Source: Nocardiopsis sp. JB363 (lineage in GTDB: Bacteria; Actinomycetota; Actinomycetes; Streptosporangiales; Streptosporangiaceae). From it: a stretch of 64,000 nt of DNA. The position numbers were made by a program, and so were the translations under genes. The notes below the pieces were generated by a model that did not search any database, had not been told where the DNA came from, and worked only from the letters and a program-made list of their open reading frames with translations. The DNA lies in the NCBI RefSeq assembly GCF_900143625.1, contig NZ_FRFF01000072.1, positions 1 through 64,000 on the forward strand, written 5' to 3'. The first letter of the stretch is position 1. The number at the start of each line of letters is the position of its first letter. Below are positions 50,462 to 59,354 of the stretch, piece by piece.

Positions 50462-51210
50462 CTACTCGACCTTCGCGGCCTTCTTCTCGGCCTTCTCCGC
50501 CTCCGGGTCCACGTCCACCCCGGCCTCGGCCCGTTCGGTGTAGGCGTAACCGTCAGCGCGTTGAAGCAACCGAACATGCCGGTGGTGCACGCCTTGAACC
50601 ACCGTTCGACCGCTACGGATGTTGAACTTTCCACTGGCCCTGACCGCGACCCTGCCCACGTGAGTGCCCACCTTCTTGCCACGGGGGACGACGGCCCTGA
50701 CGAAGTCCCCCGTAGCGAAGCCGAAGAAGCGCTTCTGCCTGGGCATGAGCAGCCGAGGAAACCCATACCGGTCGCTCCTGGTTCGGGCATGGCTACCTCG
50801 ACCCGTGCACTCCGCGATCAGGACGGTGGACACGACCTCCCTGACCCCACTCGGCTCACCAAGGGCCAACGCATCCAGTGTGTGCGATTTGGGAAGTCCC
50901 CACCTGTGTCGATTCCACTTCGTGCGGCCACCTGAAGACACACTGGTAGGAAAACCATCCCGCAGCCTCCGCAACAGAGCCCACCTTGTGGACTGGACCA
51001 CCGCCGCGTCCCGAAGCGGCGCCCTCACCTGGGACAGAACCTTGGCAAGAGTCCGTGGTCTTCCCTGAAGGAATTCCTGAAGAGAGCGTGAGTCCTTATC
51101 CTGATTGCAGGGTCCACATGCGATGACCAGGTTCGACAACCGATCCGAGCCGCCTCTGCCACGGGGATGGATGTGGTCGATGTTCAACGGAACACCCGTC
51201 ACGCCACAGT
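50462..51210 (-). pseudogene. iscB: IscB RNA-guided nuclease, 3' part (split by IS)
   Basis: The C-terminal half of IscB, an ancestor-like relative of Cas9. From the insertion point it reads GVTGVPLNIDHIHPRGRGGSDRLSNLVIACGPCNQDKDSR (HNH domain with the DHIHP site), then the RuvC-III segment LPKSHTLDALALGE with its conserved His and Asp, and the C-terminal target-recognition part (YGFPRLLMPRQKRFFGFATGDFVRAVV) with a Lys/Glu-rich end. The 5' half lies at 52196-52799. Joining the halves across one copy of the 3-bp duplication restores a continuous frame. No stop or frameshift other than the insertion is seen. Confidence 0.87.
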
Positions 51211-52195
51211 GAGGTGATCTCAGCGATTTTGCTTCTCGATATTTGTCAGAGCCAACGCCGCTTGCACGATCGAGCCGATCTTGGATGGGCTCATCGTGGT
51301 GTGGCGCAGCACTCTCCATCGGCCGGTAAGCACGGCCATCGCGCGCTCGCCGATGCACCGCAGACCGCGTAGGAGCCGGTTGTGGGCCCGGTCATCGACA
51401 TGCCATCGGTGCTCGTCGACCTGGGGCGGACGCTTGATCGGGGTGCGCACACCCACTCCGGCGCCCTCGTAGCCAGAATCGGCCAGCGTCACCACCCCGC
51501 CGGCCATGGCCTTGTGCAAAAGCGGGAACACGTGCAGGCGGGCGGCGGTGATGTCAGCTGTGGATCCGGGCTCGACCTCAGACACCCACAAAGGTTCTCC
51601 GCGAGCGTCGGACAGGAACTGGATGTTGCCGCCGTGGCGGTGTTTGTGGCCGCTGTACCAAAGGTCGCTTTTGCCGGTGGGGCCCGGCTCCGCGCTACGG
51701 TCGGAAGGAAATAGTTTTCCGTCCAGGATCAGAGGGTCCTGCGGAACCAGACGGGCGTGTTCGAGCACTTCGTACAGGTCGGGGGCTTGGTCGGCCAGCA
51801 CGTCGACACCCTCGTCGATGTAGCGGTAGCCGGTGGCCCGGGAGATGTGGTTGTCCCTGGCCAGCGCTTCGATGGCCGTGTCATCGCGAAACCACCGCAA
51901 GATCAGGACCGCCTGTTTGTAGCAGGTCAGGGAGCGGGTTCCCGTGCGGGTGCCGCGGCGCCGGCGTTCGGCGTTCAGCAGAGCCGAAAGATGCCAAACG
52001 GTGGCCTGGTCCACGTCGAGGGTGGCAGTATAGGGAACCACGTGGAGCCTTTCATGGTGGTCCGGTGCAGATTCGACACCTCGCCTTCTACCTGGGGCTC
52101 CACGTCTGTGTCAGGGGAACGGAAGTTCACCCATGAATGCACTTCTCGTCTTGATTGTCCATTTCCTGCCGATTCCCAGTTACTGAGATCACCTC
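51211..52195 (-). mobile_element. IS5-family insertion sequence (ISL2-like), 985 bp, inside iscB
   Basis: Ends are inverted repeats: GAGGTGATCTCAG at 51211-51223 and its complement CTGAGATCACCTC at 52183-52195. Both sides carry AGT (51208-51210 and 52196-52198), a 3-bp target duplication of the form ANT/ANT complement typical of the ISL2 group. The single transposase gene fills most of the element and its stop codon lies inside one terminal repeat. Removing the IS with one AGT rebuilds Ala-Tyr-Cys-Gly of the IscB HNH region. Confidence 0.9.
51220..52041 (-). CDS. IS5-family DDE transposase
   Basis: A 273-residue transposase with an N-terminal helix-turn-helix (TAIEALARDNHISRATGYRYIDEG) and a DDE core: first Asp in PLILDGKLFPSDR, second in VTLADSGYEGAG, Glu in GERAMAVLTGRW. 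It appears intact, without frameshift. The likely start is the GTG at 52041. The frame is the same direction as the interrupted iscB. Confidence 0.9.
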   Translation of the reverse strand: MVPYTATLDVDQATVWHLSALLNAERRRRGTRTGTRSLTCYKQAVLILRWFRDDTAIEALARDNHISRATGYRYIDEGVDVLADQAPDLYEVLEHARLVPQDPLILDGKLFPSDRSAEPGPTGKSDLWYSGHKHRHGGNIQFLSDARGEPLWVSEVEPGSTADITAARLHVFPLLHKAMAGGVVTLADSGYEGAGVGVRTPIKRPPQVDEHRWHVDDRAHNRLLRGLRCIGERAMAVLTGRWRVLRHTTMSPSKIGSIVQAALALTNIEKQNR

Positions 52196-52799
52196 AGTAG
52201 GCACAGCTTCGATCCCACTTGGCCAGAAGATACTCGCGCGCCTCGAACCCATACAGCGTTCCGCGCTGGTACTCGACACCTTCCAAGGGCCGCCCCGCGG
52301 ACAGAGCATGAGTGTCGAACCGCGCCAACTCCATGTGGACCGTCCTCACCGGCACCCATCGAGCTATCCGCTCCACCCAACTCGCCACACTCTCCACCTG
52401 ATGCCGGAGCGAGGGCGGGAGCCAGCCACGCGCCCGACGCCTGTTGTGGAATCGAGGCCCTCGGTAGCGCAGGTTCCGGCTGCGCCTCGCTCTTCGCAGG
52501 CTGGAGCGTCGCTCCATCTTCTGGCGGATCCACCTGCCTCTATGCTCGATCACGAGGGCGAACCGGCTATGCCTCACACCGGAGCGTGCAGCGAATACCG
52601 CGATCCCCGTGTGTTTGGATCCAGGATCGACTCCGACCTCACAACCCTCCACTTCGGACTCGGCGAGTTCACGGTCCTTGAGCCGGATGACGAATGGTGT
52701 TCGTCGATGCACGACCGCCCGTCCGGCCTTGAGCAACTTTCTGGCCCGGGCCGGACGGCACGGATCCAACGGGCGTCCATGTCTGTCGATCACGAACAC
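52196..52799 (-). pseudogene. iscB: IscB RNA-guided nuclease, 5' part (split by IS)
   Basis: The N-terminal half of IscB: the PLMP-like domain (VFVIDRHGRPLDPCRPARARKLLKAGRAVV), RuvC-I GVDPGSKHTGIAV with the catalytic Asp, the Arg-rich bridge helix (RRSSLRRARRSRNLRYRGPRF), RuvC-II VHMELARFDTH with Glu, and the first HNH Cys in WDRSCAY. The frame then runs into the IS and stops. GTG 52799 is the best start, as IscB usually begins just before this VFV(I/L)D segment; the frame is open to 53039 but that part looks like guide-RNA DNA. Together with the 3' part a product of about 449 residues is restored. Confidence 0.85.
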
Positions 52800-53055
52800 G
52801 GAAGGGTGCACCTCACGGTGCTTCTCCCCGACCTCGATGAAGTCAGGGGTAACGCCGGCACCGCCAGGTGCGGCGGCTCCGGTCTCACCTCGCACATGTC
52901 CCGCAACGGCTGCCGTGGAGTGGCCTCCGAACCCCGTTTCGTCCCTGATCCCGGGGGTGTCTACTGATTCGGATTCCAGAGCAGGCCGCTGGTGAAGCAC
53001 GGCCTGGTGGGTCTTCCCACCTTTACGGAACGTAGCCAATATCAGTCACCTCTGA
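52800..53055 (-). ncRNA. Candidate omega RNA of IscB
   Basis: IscB guide RNAs are encoded just upstream of, and reading towards, iscB. This stretch holds several stable hairpins on the minus strand, such as GGTGGG-AAGA-CCCACC (about 53017-53032), AGGCCG with CGGCCT just after it, and a CCCCG/CGGGG pair near 52935. The guide would be at the 5' end, near or past 53055. Its boundaries are inference. Confidence 0.45.
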
Positions 53056-53118
53056 ACTCGTATCGGCTTGTGCTGGTAACGGCGGCCCCGGCCCCTTGGG
53101 ACGTGAAGCTTCCACCCA

Positions 53119-53448
53119 TCAGGCGGAGGATCCCGCTACGTAAGGCGTCTCGATGCGCGTTTCCGTCCGGAAGACACGGGTTTCACGGTTGGCCACACTG
53201 GAGCCGTCCCACAACAGCAACTCCTCGCGATGGCACACGAGCTCCTCGCCCTCCTCACCGAGCTCGACGTGACTGGAGCTGTACAGTCCCAGTTCGTAGC
53301 CCCTGGACAGTTCCTCGATCGTCCACCGGTAGAGCCCGCTGCCAGAGGGGATCTCCCCTTTCAGGTGATGGGTCACCAGGGTGAGGAAGGTAGGGGCTTC
53401 CTTCGGTTTCGGTGAGGCCCAGACGGCAGAGAGCAGGTAAGCATCCAC
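53119..53448 (-). CDS. Hypothetical protein
   Basis: A 109-residue acidic soluble protein starting MDAYLLSAVWASPKPKEAP, with GLYRWTIEELSRGYELGLYSS in the middle. The GTG start follows GAGGAG by 7 bp, which supports it as real. No motif or family is recognised. It is divergent from the XRE gene and shares a region with two palindromes. Confidence 0.55.
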   Translation of the reverse strand: MDAYLLSAVWASPKPKEAPTFLTLVTHHLKGEIPSGSGLYRWTIEELSRGYELGLYSSSHVELGEEGEELVCHREELLLWDGSSVANRETRVFRTETRIETPYVAGSSA

Positions 53449-53489
53449 GAAGTCACTCCTCTTAGCAGCTCCAGGATCTTACGGTAACA

Positions 53490-53526
53490 TGGATTAATCC
53501 ACCTAGTTGGAATATCTGATAGATAT
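53490..53526 (+). promoter_or_regulatory. Two palindromes between the divergent genes
   Basis: TGGATTAATCCA (53490-53501) is a perfect 12-bp palindrome and ATATCTGATAGATAT (53512-53526) a perfect 6-3-6 one, in an A/T-rich stretch 37-73 bp before the XRE gene. They are likely operators for that XRE protein. Confidence 0.5.
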
Positions 53527-53562
53527 GATTCAATCCGGCTCACACGATGCGCGGGGAGTTCG

Positions 53563-54399
53563 ATGGCTCAGGTGAACATCCGGCGGCACCGGCTCGGCCG
53601 CAAGCTCGCTGAGATCCGCAAACAGGCGGGATTCACACAGGCCCAGGTGGCCGACCACCTGGAGACCCTCCAAGGGTCCTTCGCACGCTACGAACGAGGC
53701 GAGCGCATCCCCAAGCGCGCGGTGCTTCACCAGCTCTTCAAGATCTACGAGGCCTCAGATGACGTTCGGCAGGAGGTCATGTCACTCTTCCGTCTCGCGG
53801 AACAGCCGAGTTGGTGGCATCCCTACCGCGATCTCCTACAGCCCGAATACGCGGCCCTGTTGGACCTGGAAGTGGACGCCTCGGAGATCCGGACCTATCA
53901 GGTGATCGTCCCGGGGCTCTTGCAAACCCCCGAGTACACGCGTCAGATCCTGCTGTACGGCCCGCAGGAGCTCGACGACGAAGAGGTCGAGCGGCGCCTT
54001 GAACTGCGCATGGCACGGCGGCAGATCCTCTCCCATGAGGCAAGCCCTCGTCTCCTGGCCCTCATGGACGAGGGCGCACTACGCCGAATCGTGGGAAACG
54101 AACAGGTGATGCGGGAACAGGTCCAGCACCTTCTGAACGTCTCAGGCCAAGCACAGACCTCGGTACAGATCGTGCCGTTCTCCGCAGGCGCCCACCCGGC
54201 CGCGGTAGGGGGCCTGACCCTGCTCGACTGTGACGATCGTCGAGTGGTCTACGTGGAGACCACCGTGGGTGAGCTGTTCTTGGACAAACCCACCGAGGTC
54301 ACCACCTCCGCTCGTGCTTTCGAGAGCCTGCTGGGCTTCGCGTTGAGTGTGAAAGAATCCCGTGAGCTGATGGAGAAGTACGTCGAGGAGTACTCGTGA
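53563..54399 (+). CDS. XRE-family regulator with DUF5753
   Basis: A 278-residue protein: an N-terminal HTH (LGRKLAEIRKQAGFTQAQVADHLETLQGSFARYERGER) and a C-terminal DUF5753 domain (WWHPYRDLLQPEYAALLDLEVDASEIRTYQVIVPGLLQTPEYTR). This pairs with the DUF397 gene that overlaps its end by 4 bp (GTGA). Such pairs are abundant in actinobacteria and regulate development or act like toxin-antitoxin-type modules. It may control neighbouring accessory genes; that is inference. Confidence 0.9.
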   Translation: MAQVNIRRHRLGRKLAEIRKQAGFTQAQVADHLETLQGSFARYERGERIPKRAVLHQLFKIYEASDDVRQEVMSLFRLAEQPSWWHPYRDLLQPEYAALLDLEVDASEIRTYQVIVPGLLQTPEYTRQILLYGPQELDDEEVERRLELRMARRQILSHEASPRLLALMDEGALRRIVGNEQVMREQVQHLLNVSGQAQTSVQIVPFSAGAHPAAVGGLTLLDCDDRRVVYVETTVGELFLDKPTEVTTSARAFESLLGFALSVKESRELMEKYVEEYS

Positions 54400-54602
54400 G
54401 GATCAAATCGAGCTTCAGCGGGCAGAAGGGGGAGTGCGTGGAGGTGGAGCAGGTCGGCGACGAGTTTCACGTCACGGACAGCAAGCACCCCGAACGTCCC
54501 GCCCACGTGTACACCCGTGGGGAGTGGCGTGCGTTCCTCCAGGGTGCACGTAACGGCGAGTTCGACTTCGACGTGTTCGATGTAGAGGGCGTCCAGGCCT
54601 GA
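54396..54602 (+). CDS. DUF397 protein
   Basis: A 68-residue DUF397 protein, with the typical SSFSGQKGECVEVEQVGDEFHVTDSKHPERP and a final GEWRAFLQGARNGEFD. It starts at a GTG overlapping the XRE stop. DUF397 partners bind and modulate their XRE regulators. Confidence 0.9.
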   Translation: MRIKSSFSGQKGECVEVEQVGDEFHVTDSKHPERPAHVYTRGEWRAFLQGARNGEFDFDVFDVEGVQA

Positions 54603-54617
54603 CATCCGGACCGAACG

Positions 54618-54647
54618 GGGCGGGGCATCCGAATCGGTGCCCCGCCC
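54618..54647. terminator. Bidirectional terminator
   Basis: A perfect 10-bp stem (54618-54627 with 54638-54647) between the convergent DUF397 and CmoA-like genes, close to both stops. It can serve both strands. Confidence 0.75.
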
Positions 54648-54651
54648 TCGT

Positions 54652-55380
54652 CTATCTCACCGCGAGGTAGACGACGAAGTTGTACCAGCGGAACACCTCA
54701 TCCACCCGAGAGAACCCCGCCTTGAGCAGTGCGTCACGATTCTCCGAGACACGGTACGGAACGAGGACGTTCTCCAGGGCTTCCCGCTTCTTCGCGATCT
54801 CGGTCCGGGAGTAGCCGCTGCGCTCCTTGTAGTCGTGGTAGAGGTCGATGTAGACCCGGGAGAGGTCGTTGTCGTCTCCAAGCACCTTCTCCCCCAGCAG
54901 CAACGCCCCGCCTGGTTCGATGGACGCACAGATCTTCGCCAGGACCGCGTCGCGCTGAGGCGGTCGAACGAATTGCAGGGTGAAGAGCATGATGACGACT
55001 CGTGCACCGGGGAGATCCGGCAGACATTCCACCGAATCCTCAAGGATGTCGACCTCGTGGCCGAGACCCTCCGCTCGAATCTTCTCCCGACACCGTGCCC
55101 GCATCGCGGCCGAAGGCTCCACACCCACGAACTTCACCCGGGTCTTCGGAGAGATCGCCTTCATCAGTCGGACCAACGTGTTCCCCGTGGAGGAACCCAC
55201 GTCGTAGACGGTCCCACCCTCCTCTTCGAGGAAGCTTCGACTGAGTTCGACGGACATCCTCTGGATCTCGTCGTAGAACGGGATGCTGCGGTCCAGCATG
55301 TCGTCGAAGACGTCCGCCACACCCTCATCGAAGACGAAGTCGCCCACCTGGGTCCTGTCCACGAAGATCTCGTCACGCAT
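54652..55380 (-). CDS. CmoA-like carboxy-S-adenosylmethionine synthase
   Basis: A 242-residue class I methyltransferase-fold protein that follows E. coli CmoA along its length: DFVFDEGVADVFDDMLDRSIPFY, the SAM loop VYDVGSSTGNTL, IMLFTLQFVRPPQR, PGGALLLGEK, and the KREALENVL segment with Arg199, part of the CmoA site that binds the prephenate-derived carboxylate. CmoA turns SAM and prephenate into carboxy-SAM, used for wobble uridine modification in proteobacteria. Here no CmoB is near; instead it overlaps the MccB-methyltransferase gene by 8 bp. In Bacillus and Yersinia microcin C-like clusters, carboxy-SAM feeds carboxymethylation of cytosine. That role is proposed here. Confidence 0.85.
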   Translation of the reverse strand: MRDEIFVDRTQVGDFVFDEGVADVFDDMLDRSIPFYDEIQRMSVELSRSFLEEEGGTVYDVGSSTGNTLVRLMKAISPKTRVKFVGVEPSAAMRARCREKIRAEGLGHEVDILEDSVECLPDLPGARVVIMLFTLQFVRPPQRDAVLAKICASIEPGGALLLGEKVLGDDNDLSRVYIDLYHDYKERSGYSRTEIAKKREALENVLVPYRVSENRDALLKAGFSRVDEVFRWYNFVVYLAVR

Positions 55381-57196
55381 CGAGACTCCTCTCCAAGACC
55401 ATGACCAGGAAGTAGGGGATGCGGCTCGACTTGTCGAAGATGACGGGATCTCGTTCCGCGATCAGCTCGTCGGGCTCTGGTTCCAGCACTCGACGCACGA
55501 GAAACCCCTGGCCGATGAACTCTTCGAAGTACCTGGACATCGTCCTGTGGTGGGTTCGAATCCCTCGGATCCTGACCTCGCCGTGCCGGTCCTCTCGATC
55601 CTTCAGGCATTCCCCCTCGACGAAGTAGTCATCGAGGACGTAGTGCCGGTACTCCCACCCTTGTGGGCCGGGAACCTTGTACCAACCGCCGCGATCCTTC
55701 ATCGGGTGTGGGAGCGACAGCACGAGACGGCCCCCGGGTTTGAGCGCCGAGTGAAGACTCCGAACACTGGCCGACAAGTCGGCGATGTGGTCCAGGACGT
55801 TGAGGCAACAAATAGTGTCGTAGCGTCCTTCAGCCTCGGTGAGGGCCTCCAGACCGGCACGATGCACCTCAACGCGCTTCTCCCACCCCTGGACACGGTC
55901 ACGAAGGATCCGCTCCATCGCCCCATCTGGCTCATAAGCGTCAACGTTCGCTCCCAGGGCCACGAGTCGATCCGTGACCTGCCCGGAGCCCGCACCTACG
56001 TCTGCCACCCTTTGCCCCTGGATCGACCCCACGAGTTCGGGAACGAGAGGATCGAGCAGAACCGCGTTGAAGGAATGCACTTCGCGTTCCTCCGCGTACT
56101 GAGCCGCGATGCCCTCCCAATCCGCCTTCGTGCTCTCTCCACATACGGAACAGCCGGCGTCGCGCTGACGAAACTCCTCCCAGGTGGTGTCGTACGAACG
56201 GGAGTCAATGAGCATCCGGCGTCCTTCCGTCACCGCGGGGAGCCCCAAGAGCCACCGGATCGCCTCATTGGCCTGTACCGATGCCACCAGAGCGTTCAGG
56301 GGTCCAAAACTCGGGGCCTGCCAGTGAGGGTTCAGCTCAACGTCGAGTGTTGGCTGCACGGAAACGCTGTCGCCTGTGTTCTCCTCCGTCTCCGGAAGAC
56401 TCTCGGCCTGCTCTTGGCTGCAAGGGAAACAAGGTGTCCTCGGTGGCAGAAGCAAGGGCCCCACACTGCCGTGCCCCTCGATGTATCCCGAGGCACTGAA
56501 CGGGATCCCCCGGCTCTGACAGGCGCGACCGGTCCAGAGGTGAACGTCGGCCGGACGGTCGGCGGACAGTAGAACGATGTCCGATCGCGCGGCCACCCGC
56601 CCCGCCAGATCGGAAGAAGTGAACGATTCGGGGATCGTGACCACTTCCAGGTCCGAACGGAGTTCGAGCAGTCTTTCCGCCGCGACGTCGACCTTGAGTC
56701 GGCCGACGTCCTTCTCCTTGAAGAGCGTTTGCCGGGTGAGGTTGGACAGCTCCACCACGTCACCGTCCGACATCACCAGACGTCCGACCCCGGCGGCGGC
56801 CAGATGCGTCGCCACATGGGTGCCGATTCCACCCATACCCACCAGACCCACCGTGACCTCGGAGAGCCGCTCCTGCGCGCCCTCGTCGACCCCCATGAGC
56901 TGAAAGAAAAGACCGTGGCGGTCGTACCGGCCACGGTCTTCGGGTGCGGGGACAAGGACACGGGCCTGTTCCAGGTCAGCGATCATCGCTGTGCATTCGG
57001 CCCGTGTCCAGCCGGAAAGCTCGGCTGCCGCCTCTACCAGTCCTTCACGTTCCCTTGGCCGAATACAGCCTTGGAGCAACGGAATGAGGAACTCGGGTGG
57101 TTCCTCAAGGTGCCACGCGTTCGGTGGAAGGGTCCCTATGCGGAGACCACCATCGGTTCGACGAATCGAGAGGTAGGGCGGCAGCCAAAGCTTCAT
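55373..57196 (-). CDS. MccB-type peptide adenylyltransferase fused to a SAM methyltransferase
   Basis: A 607-residue fusion. Residues 1-85 match the MccB peptide-clamp region; 86-355 are an E1-like (ThiF) domain with GRYDRHGLFFQ, the ATP loop GMGGIGTH (120-127), NLTRQTLFKEKDVGRLK (152-168), SADRP, and two zinc Cys pairs (256/259 and 349/352). These follow E. coli MccB motif by motif; MccB joins a nucleotide to the C-terminal Asn of a small peptide. Residues about 356-607 form a class I methyltransferase (VADVGAGSGQ at 397-406, PGGRLVLSLPHP), probably the carboxymethyltransferase using carboxy-SAM. The ATG directly follows the aspS stop with no gap. Confidence 0.88.
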   Translation of the reverse strand: MKLWLPPYLSIRRTDGGLRIGTLPPNAWHLEEPPEFLIPLLQGCIRPREREGLVEAAAELSGWTRAECTAMIADLEQARVLVPAPEDRGRYDRHGLFFQLMGVDEGAQERLSEVTVGLVGMGGIGTHVATHLAAAGVGRLVMSDGDVVELSNLTRQTLFKEKDVGRLKVDVAAERLLELRSDLEVVTIPESFTSSDLAGRVAARSDIVLLSADRPADVHLWTGRACQSRGIPFSASGYIEGHGSVGPLLLPPRTPCFPCSQEQAESLPETEENTGDSVSVQPTLDVELNPHWQAPSFGPLNALVASVQANEAIRWLLGLPAVTEGRRMLIDSRSYDTTWEEFRQRDAGCSVCGESTKADWEGIAAQYAEEREVHSFNAVLLDPLVPELVGSIQGQRVADVGAGSGQVTDRLVALGANVDAYEPDGAMERILRDRVQGWEKRVEVHRAGLEALTEAEGRYDTICCLNVLDHIADLSASVRSLHSALKPGGRLVLSLPHPMKDRGGWYKVPGPQGWEYRHYVLDDYFVEGECLKDREDRHGEVRIRGIRTHHRTMSRYFEEFIGQGFLVRRVLEPEPDELIAERDPVIFDKSSRIPYFLVMVLERSLDA

Positions 57197-58969
57197 CTAG
57201 CTCCTTTTTTTGTCTCCCTGAGGGATGACCGTTCGGATGTGCACGTCACTCAGCTGCTTCTCAGAGACGGCCGCGGGGGCACCCATCATGAGGTCCTGGG
57301 CGTTCTGGTTGAGCGGGAAGGCGATGGTTTCGCGGATGTTGGGCTCATCGGCCAGCAACATGACGATCCGGTCGATGCCAGGAGCGATGCCACCGTGAGG
57401 CGGAGCACCGAACTTCAGGGCCTTGAGCATGCCGCCGAACTCGGCTTCGACGGCGTCCTTGTCGTAGCCGGCGATCTCGAAGGCCTCGTACATGATCTCG
57501 GGCGAGTGGTTCCGGATCGCGCCGGAAGACAACTCCACACCGTTGCAGACGATGTCGTACTGCCAGGCCAGAATGTCCAGAGGGTCCTTGTTGAGCAACG
57601 CGTCCATCCCGCCCTGCGGCATGGAGAACGGGTTGTGGCTGAACTCGATGTCGCCCTCGTCGGAACGCTCGAACATCGGGAAGTCCACGATCCAGCAGAA
57701 GCGGTAGACCTTCTCCTCCGCCAGGCCCGCGCGCTTACCGGCCTCGACACGGACCGGGGCCATGATCCGGTTGATCTCGGCCTCGTCCTCACTGGCACAG
57801 AAGAACAGGCCATAACCGGGACCGGCGCCGAGGGTGGTCAACAGCTCGTCAGAGATTTCGGTGACGAACTTGGCAATGGGACCGGTGAGTTCGTTGTTCT
57901 CCCCGACCTTGAGCCAGGCCAGTCCCTTGGCGCCCTGTTCGACGGCGAAGTCGCCGATGCCGTCGTAGAACTTGCGCGGCTGCCCGCCCACGTTCGGCAC
58001 GGCCAAGGCGCGGACCTTCTTACCGGCGAAGGCGCGGAAGTCGGTCTTGTCGAACAGCGCGGTGACGTCGAGCATCTTCATCGGTACTCGCAGGTCCGGC
58101 TTGTCGGTGCCGTACCACTCCAGGGCGTCCCGGTAGGCGATGCGCGGGTAGGGAGAGGTGATCTCCCAACCGGTGGAGAACTCGCGGAAGACGTCGGTCA
58201 TGACCTTCTCGATGACCTCGAAGACGTCCTCCTGCTCGACGAAGCTCATCTCGACATCGAGCTGGTAGAACTCACCGGGCGAACGGTCCGCGCGGCTGTC
58301 CTCGTCCCGGAAGCAGGGGGCGATCTGGAAGTACCGGTCGAACCCGGCGATCATGAGGAGCTGCTTGAACTGCTGCGGCGCTTGGGGCAGGGCGAAGAAC
58401 TCGCCGGGGTGCAGGCGCGAGGGGACCAGGAAGTCGCGAGCACCCTCAGGGCTGGAGCTGGTGAGGATCGGGGTCTGGAACTCATTGAAGCCCAGGTCCG
58501 TCATCTTCTTACGGATGGCGGCCACGACCTGCGAACGCAGCATGACGTTGCGGTGCATCCGCTCACGACGCAGGTCCAGGAAGCGGTAGGTCAGGCGACG
58601 CTCTTCGGAGGTGTTGTCCTCGGGGAAGACCGTGAGGGGAAGCTCCTCGGTCGTTCCAAGGATCTCCACCTCCGCCGCCTCGATCTCGATCTCACCGGTG
58701 GGCAGGTTCGGGTTGATGTTCCCGGCGCTACGCGCAGAGACCTCGCCCGTGACCTGAATCACCGATTCCTTGGAGATTCGGCTGAGTTCCTCGAACACCG
58801 GGGATTCGGGGCGAGCCATGAGCTGCGTGACGCCGTAGTGGTCGCGCAGGTCGACGAAGAGCAGACCACCGAGATCCCGGCGGTTGTGCACCCAGCCAGA
58901 AAGGCGCACCTGCTGCCCGACGTGCTCCTTACGGAGCTGACCACACGAATGAGTCCTGTAACGATGCAT
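57197..58969 (-). CDS. aspS: Aspartyl-tRNA synthetase
   Basis: A 590-residue bacterial-type AspRS: OB anticodon domain ([26 protein letters not shown]), class II motifs [24 protein letters not shown], the GAD insertion, and the motif 3 region [39 protein letters not shown]. It resembles Streptomyces AspRS, so it may be the only, housekeeping copy. Yet the next gene begins on the base after its stop and a precursor-like gene lies just upstream. Processed microcin C inhibits AspRS, so this enzyme could be the target or a tolerant, self-protecting version. The ribosome site is weak. Confidence 0.95.
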
Positions 58970-59114
58970 GAGTTACCAAGTCCACTAACTACACGGCTGG
59001 GTGAGGATGCCGGGGAGCCCGCGGCCGGGTCCGGCTGAAGGCATGGCATGCCCTTGAACAACTGGGATCCTACCGCCAACCACGCCACCTGGCCTCCTGG
59101 TTCAAGTGGCACAC

Positions 59115-59138
59115 GGACCCCCGAAGGCCCGGGGGTCC
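59115..59138 (-). terminator. Hairpin between the precursor gene and aspS
   Basis: GGACCCCC (59115-59122) pairs with GGGGGTCC (59131-59138), 11 bp past the 21-codon gene. No T-run follows. In the E. coli microcin C operon a stem-loop between mccA and mccB favours precursor transcripts; this may play the same part. Confidence 0.6.
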
Positions 59139-59149
59139 GATCCCGGCCG

Positions 59150-59215
59150 CTAGTTGGCGACCACGGTGGTGCTGCCCTTGACCTTGCGGACCGGGGTCAT
59201 CGAGATACGGCGCAT
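59150..59215 (-). CDS. Microcin C-like precursor peptide, ends in Asn
   Basis: A 21-codon gene: the product starts MRRISM, has the basic core PVRKVKG and ends TTVVAN, followed by TAG. GAGGAG lies 6 bp before the ATG, an excellent ribosome site in a region where nothing else is coded. MccA peptides are short, keep their initiator Met, need no leader removal, and must end in Asn, the residue MccB modifies. Its size, basic character and terminal Asn fit that, and it lies upstream of aspS and the MccB gene on the same strand. It is followed by a hairpin and preceded by a palindrome-rich promoter. Too short for standard gene finders. Confidence 0.72.
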   Translation of the reverse strand: MRRISMTPVRKVKGSTTVVAN

Positions 59216-59266
59216 GCGGCTCTCCTCGGGCTGTATCGAACACCGCCGGGATCGACGGCACTCGAA

Positions 59267-59327
59267 ACGCTACGCCAGCATGCTGGAATATTCCAAGGCT
59301 TGGAAGGAAACCATATCTCTGAAGATA
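59267..59327 (-). promoter_or_regulatory. Palindrome-rich promoter of the precursor gene
   Basis: On the minus strand TTGGAA (59291-59296) and TAGCGT (59267-59272) lie 18 bp apart, giving a start about 45 bp before the ATG. Overlapping perfect palindromes cover it: CCAGCATGCTGG (59275-59286), TGGAATATTCCA (59284-59295) and TTCCAAGGCTTGGAA (59291-59305), plus TATCT/AGATA (59314-59327). One or more regulators probably act here. Confidence 0.55.
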
Positions 59328-59354
59328 GGAAATTCCACGACGCGTAAGACCGGG

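Follow-up and report, generated by a model that had tools for sequence, protein, structure and literature searches.

A microcin C-like operon of Nocardiopsis enclosing the only aspartyl-tRNA synthetase gene found in the genome

Why would an essential housekeeping gene be kept inside the operon of a toxin that may be directed against its own product? The aspartyl-tRNA synthetase (AspRS) is the usual target of microcin C-like antibiotics, and in the stretch of Nocardiopsis sp. JB363 DNA analysed here (64,000 nucleotides of contig NZ_FRFF01000072.1, hereafter the window) the AspRS gene aspS belongs to a microcin C-like operon with the gene order mccA - aspS - mccB - mccS (Table 1). An earlier sequence-only reading of the locus, which gave no strand, dealt with mccB and mccS; it overlooked the other two genes of the operon, those for the precursor and for AspRS.

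Table 1. Features of the mcc operon and its surroundings (positions in the window)
Feature	Position	Strand	Description
Exchanged block	50534..59351		Relative to sister genome G023 (type-B aspS at this place); identity of the flanks 91% and 89%
Regulator gene	53563..54399	+	HTH_31-DUF5753; beside the operon in both mcc genomes, 85%
Small partner of regulator	54396..54602	+	DUF397; beside the operon in both mcc genomes
mccS	54652..55380	-	CmoA-type carboxy-SAM synthase, 242 aa; 8 bp overlap with mccB
mccB, C-terminal part	55376..56128	-	Residues 357-607; domain with a class I methyltransferase fold, presumably the carboxymethyltransferase
mccB, N-terminal part	56129..57196	-	Residues 1-356; MccB/ThiF-type nucleotidyltransferase with CxxC...CxxC
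aspS	57197..58969	-	Type-A aspartyl-tRNA synthetase; TIGR00459 and PRK00476 over cut-off
aspS leader	58970..59101	-	Conserved among type-A Nocardiopsis; contains GGTAGGAT
Hairpin	59108..59144	-	Strong, directly 3' of mccA; possible terminator/attenuator, no T run
mccA candidate	59150..59215	-	21-codon precursor MRRISMTPVRKVKGSTTVVAN, C-terminal Asn; GAGGAG upstream

The fused mccB is a minus-strand open reading frame (55373-57196) encoding 607 aa; the plus-strand translation of the same interval was rejected as not being a gene. The sequence-only reading had proposed a fusion of an MccB-like protein with a methyltransferase, and the searches bear this out. The Pfam family ThiF matches residues 100-350 (E 1.4e-49), the top PDB matches of the N-terminal part are the MccB structures 3h5a, 3h5n and 6om4 (E ~4e-32, residues 87-354), and Methyltransf_23 matches residues 381-500 (E 6e-16) in a domain with the motif VADVGAGSGQ. 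A model of the C-terminal domain by itself, built on 13 sequences, reached pLDDT 83.3 and pTM 0.85; the model of the whole fusion, made from two sequences, had pLDDT 32. A check of conservation, suggested in the same reading, revealed a full-length fusion with 74% identity in Nocardiopsis sp. ATB16-24 (G011), in the same order and place. This genome was the sole match in single-protein and domain-alignment scans of the genome contigs for a fused MccB, and a search with the C-terminal domain across the class found no further genome at E 1e-22. Since both the full-length fusion and the CmoA-like gene are kept in ATB16-24, the fusion is not a chance arrangement.

The adjoining mccS, noted earlier as a separate, slightly overlapping CmoA-like gene, was recognised as such by the NCBIfam CmoA model TIGR00740 (215.2 bits against a cut-off of 193.3); a second CmoA model, PRK15451, scored 155, below its cut-off of 285. 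The PDB matches of the product are 1im8 and 4gek (E ~4e-42), and the alignment to them places Arg199 of CmoA, which we take to be the carboxylate-binding residue, within a conserved KRxxLENV. The homologue in ATB16-24 shows 78% identity and has the same order and place. Among 394 sampled genomes of the class, TIGR00740 was passed in one, namely that of the window. Weaker CmoA-like matches occur in the actinobacteria G139, G181, G220 and G110, and no homologue of the MccB C-terminal domain was detectable in the surrounding stretches examined. As a separate observation, on a Rhizobium leguminosarum plasmid (L058, 5380-10392) YcaO and TfuA genes are followed downstream by consecutive genes for MoaD/ThiS, a MoeB-like protein, a class I methyltransferase and LanM; the MoeB-like gene abuts the methyltransferase gene.

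The C-terminal half of MccB could also be an ordinary SAM-dependent methyltransferase acting on the peptide or the nucleotide. Its closest folds are 3g5l (Z 24.9, rmsd 2.3, 219 residues aligned) and 3bkw (Z 23.9, rmsd 2.6, 212 aligned), both uncharacterised SAM methyltransferases and also its nearest relatives by sequence. Its CmoB score stays below the cut-off (PRK15068, 39.3 bits against 209) and covers the Rossmann core only, and CmoB is absent among the 50 listed entries of the structural comparison. Between HPM and DYF it has a longer stretch than ordinary Nocardiopsis methyltransferases do. The sequence-only reading had named a match to some unrelated methyltransferase family as the outcome that would speak against carboxymethyl transfer. 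The dissimilarity to CmoB did emerge; as a refutation it does not stand, because the C-terminal domain of MccB_Bam likewise does not significantly resemble CmoB, yet is strictly cxSAM-specific (PMC10491745), and unlikeness to CmoB is what the known family of fused MccBs would predict. An ordinary methyltransferase would, moreover, have to be reconciled with an overlapping cxSAM synthase gene that exceeds a CmoA cut-off so rarely passed in the class and that is kept in ATB16-24, and so this alternative is considered improbable. The evidence supports instead a microcin C-like system of the carboxymethylating kind, in which the adenylyltransferase bears the transferase and the carboxy-SAM synthase has a gene of its own.

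The further claim that such an arrangement departs from the known systems, in which both carboxymethylation functions were thought to reside in MccS, had to be abandoned. In MccB_Yps and MccB_Nva, an N-terminal nucleotidyltransferase is followed by a C-terminal carboxymethyltransferase, and MccS is a separate cxSAM synthase (PMC9239234); MccB_Bam and its MccS are built alike (PMC12250964, PMC10491745). Judged by the published descriptions of their C-terminal domains, the fused MccB of the window would belong to a type of microcin C maker that is rare but has been described before, in B. amyloliquefaciens, Y. pseudotuberculosis and Nocardia vaccinii. The N. vaccinii system is also similar in its actinobacterial host and in its MccA of 21 residues with a C-terminal Asn (PMC9239234). 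It differs in having mccC (export), mccD, mccE1, mccX and the immunity peptidase MccG, none of which was found here, whereas aspS lies inside the operon only in the Nocardiopsis case. The B. amyloliquefaciens cluster (Serebryakova 2016, cited in PMC12250964 and PMC10491745) resembles the one described here in its small size, fused MccB with a CmoB-unlike C-terminal domain and separate CmoA-like MccS; it comprises four genes with a 19-residue precursor, and the reviews consulted do not mention an AspRS gene.

The candidate precursor gene reads ATG...AAC TAG and is located upstream of aspS. The predicted peptide is identical in the window and in ATB16-24. At the DNA level, 62 of 66 nucleotides are the same and all four changes fall at third codon positions; the DNA flanking mccA has diverged. 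Because these synonymous changes are the only differences, comparison of the two sequences indicates that mccA is under purifying selection. Among 40 Nocardiopsis genomes it was found in two, both of them mcc-bearing. For the hairpin that follows mccA, the predicted energy is -29.7 kcal/mol (z -1.7) with the window sequence and -30.1 (z -3.3) with that of ATB16-24, which is different. Homology with type-A genomes stops at 59101, so that mccA falls outside it, and the conserved segment adjoining aspS probably represents the gene's own promoter and leader. It was also observed that GCCGTGTAGTTAGTGGACTTGGTAACTC, with small variations, stands right before the type-A aspS start in all the type-A genomes shown (58970-59000 in the window), and that this part of the leader has no clear ribosome-binding site. 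In another actinobacterial genus, MLKLGGN, a possible 7-residue Asn-ending precursor, was noticed upstream of an MccB homologue (G374, L051).

In both mcc genomes, aspS is situated between mccA and mccB, and its stop codon is followed by the mccB start without any gap. It is the sole AspRS gene found in the window genome (210 contigs, 99.96% complete), and the ATB16-24 genome likewise has a single one. The gene occupies one common place in 37 Nocardiopsis genomes, between genes for SpoIIE and an MBL-fold protein, and two AspRS types, A and B, with a mutual identity of about 42-45%, alternate there. Type A is common in Nocardiopsis without mcc genes. The family mostly has type B, but type A was found in four of its further genera (76-81%), and outside them in genus g20, by inference Streptomyces, in the 11 genomes that the phylum sample returned (67-70%). 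Compared with type B and the T. thermophilus enzyme, type A has a one-residue insertion in the motif 2 loop (type B: RADRQP-EFTQ), a Thr-to-Tyr change in the same loop, and in motif 3 HNPFS where the others have HHPFT, plus a Pro. Active-site changes specific to the operon were sought in AspRS and none was found; the listed differences characterise type A in general. In two other genomes, G013 (L042) and G022 (L041), the type-A aspS is split over two frames, owing to a sequencing error or a real frameshift.

An in-place exchange of aspS was demonstrated in the mcc-bearing genomes, for the window genome by comparison with its sister G023. The borders of the exchanged block are sharp (50533 and 59352, the latter being the stop codon of the MBL gene), and the G+C content is lower within it. 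In ATB16-24 the right border matches and the left border lies ahead of the operon. The tree of five linked genes placed the window genome (G000) beside G023 and G026, both type B, with support 100, and ATB16-24 inside a type-B group with support 94-99. In the tree of the unlinked rpoB, the window genome grouped with G023 (100/98), and ATB16-24 appeared in a rooted group of five with type-B genomes (87/91). Both mcc genomes thus carry type A despite their position within type-B clades. Their AspRS genes are not sisters, which indicates at least two transfers, or recombination. The aspS of the window genome shows slightly more divergence than expected from its flanks, by +1.5 sd on average, a value that is not decisive between long-term retention of type A and replacement. 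Within the window, an IscB-like gene in pieces was also observed (50462-53139, minus strand), with its RRXRR part at 53039-52194 and its HNH part at 51358-50462; an open reading frame for a DDE_Tnp_4 transposase (52041-51220) sits between the two, and a HEARO (omega RNA) match at 53139-52878 scored 58.8 bits, under the gathering score of 83.

In the microcin C producers known so far, self-protection relies on modification or cleavage of the toxin (MccE, MccF, MccG, MccH). No gene of these types was found in the exchanged block, and no exporter was found in the block or in the neighbouring genes scanned. An exporter is counted among the minimal mcc genes (PMC9239234). Without one, the product might stay inside the cell, and the operon would then be a self-stabilising pair of toxin and resistant target and not a secreted antibiotic. 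The location of the sole AspRS gene within the operon would also fit such a pair; an exporter may, however, lie elsewhere in the genome, and an intracellular product is judged unlikely.

Immunity functions may themselves be encoded at a distance. Both mcc genomes contain a second MccB homologue elsewhere and encode S66 (MccF family) peptidases. In the window genome, the genes for the second homologue and a HIT protein lie side by side on contig C77 (L021, 800-1903 and 312-857, minus strand). The HIT protein carries EGYGVDHAHVKLF, which corresponds to the MccH-type motif ExxxxxHxHxK, and the MccB homologue is without the methyltransferase domain; no Asn-ending precursor was found just upstream of it. 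A HIT motif of this kind was present downstream of MccB in all 12 other Nocardiopsis loci checked. Proteins of the MccH type are proven immunity factors, and Nocardiopsis kunsanensis, which belongs to the same genus and has an mcc-like cluster, uses the HIT phosphoramidase MccH (PMC7157772); its likely counterpart in the window genome is the C77 locus, not the operon.

An alternative is that aspS is a hitchhiker. The mcc genes would once have entered a type-A Nocardiopsis to either side of aspS, and recombination in the conserved flanks would later have carried them, with aspS between them, into type-B species; the AspRS type would be irrelevant to immunity, and an MccH-type HIT protein or an S66 peptidase would protect the cell. 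The presence of these unlinked genes, the retention by aspS of its own conserved leader and the frequency of type A in mcc-free members of the genus agree with such a course of events. Less easily accommodated are the position of mccA outside the leader and the gapless junction of aspS and mccB in both genomes, and chance alone hardly explains why two lineages should have kept an essential gene within a toxin operon. Hitchhiking is regarded as possible, if less likely than not.

The explanation that appears on balance probable is that of a microcin C-like operon with a swapped-in, presumably resistant AspRS that serves both as the housekeeping enzyme and as self-immunity. The N-terminal half of MccB would activate the terminal Asn of MccA and join a nucleotide to it through a phosphoramidate bond; by analogy with the characterised fused MccBs, this nucleotide is most likely CMP. 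MccS would make carboxy-SAM, which the C-terminal half of MccB would then use to carboxymethylate the base, and processing of the product would set free an AspRS inhibitor, an aspartyl-nucleotide mimic. The divergent type-A AspRS of the operon would have replaced the native type-B gene in place, and therefore the one remaining AspRS would have to ensure both translation and self-immunity. That type A tolerates the payload is plausible because of the differences from type B and the T. thermophilus enzyme in the region of the active site. What points against the explanation is that the aspS leader is common to mcc-free type-A genomes, and aspS was thus not made for the mcc operon. Recombination that moved mccA and mccBS together would also necessarily drag aspS along. 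The lack of operon-specific active-site changes, the unlinked MccB homologues and S66 peptidases as possible sources of immunity, the non-sister relation of the two operon AspRS genes and the lack of an exporter in the block likewise speak against it.

Self-protection by a resistant target is familiar from the producers of albomycin (SerRS), agrocin 84 (LeuRS) and mupirocin (IleRS). The resistant synthetases of these producers are usually extra copies, whereas the operon AspRS described here is the only copy and occupies the native aspS locus. The open-access literature, to which the search was confined, yielded no account of an mcc operon that contains an AspRS gene.

Replacement of the target would be a solution to self-protection different from that of MccE, MccF, MccG and MccH, and one with its evolutionary context visible: two AspRS types alternate at one locus, and the antibiotic genes are confined to type-A genomes nested within clades that are otherwise type B. 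It is quite possible, and is suggested here tentatively, that the mcc cassette spreads together with a resistant AspRS that replaces the only copy of the host, that the producer comes to depend on the operon's own target enzyme, and that the patchwork of types A and B in Nocardiopsis is a trace of selection by AspRS-targeting antibiotics. According to a long-standing idea, natural inhibitors of aminoacyl-tRNA synthetases drive the lateral exchange of synthetase genes. In this group of Nocardiopsis, such inhibitor-driven exchange becomes directly testable.
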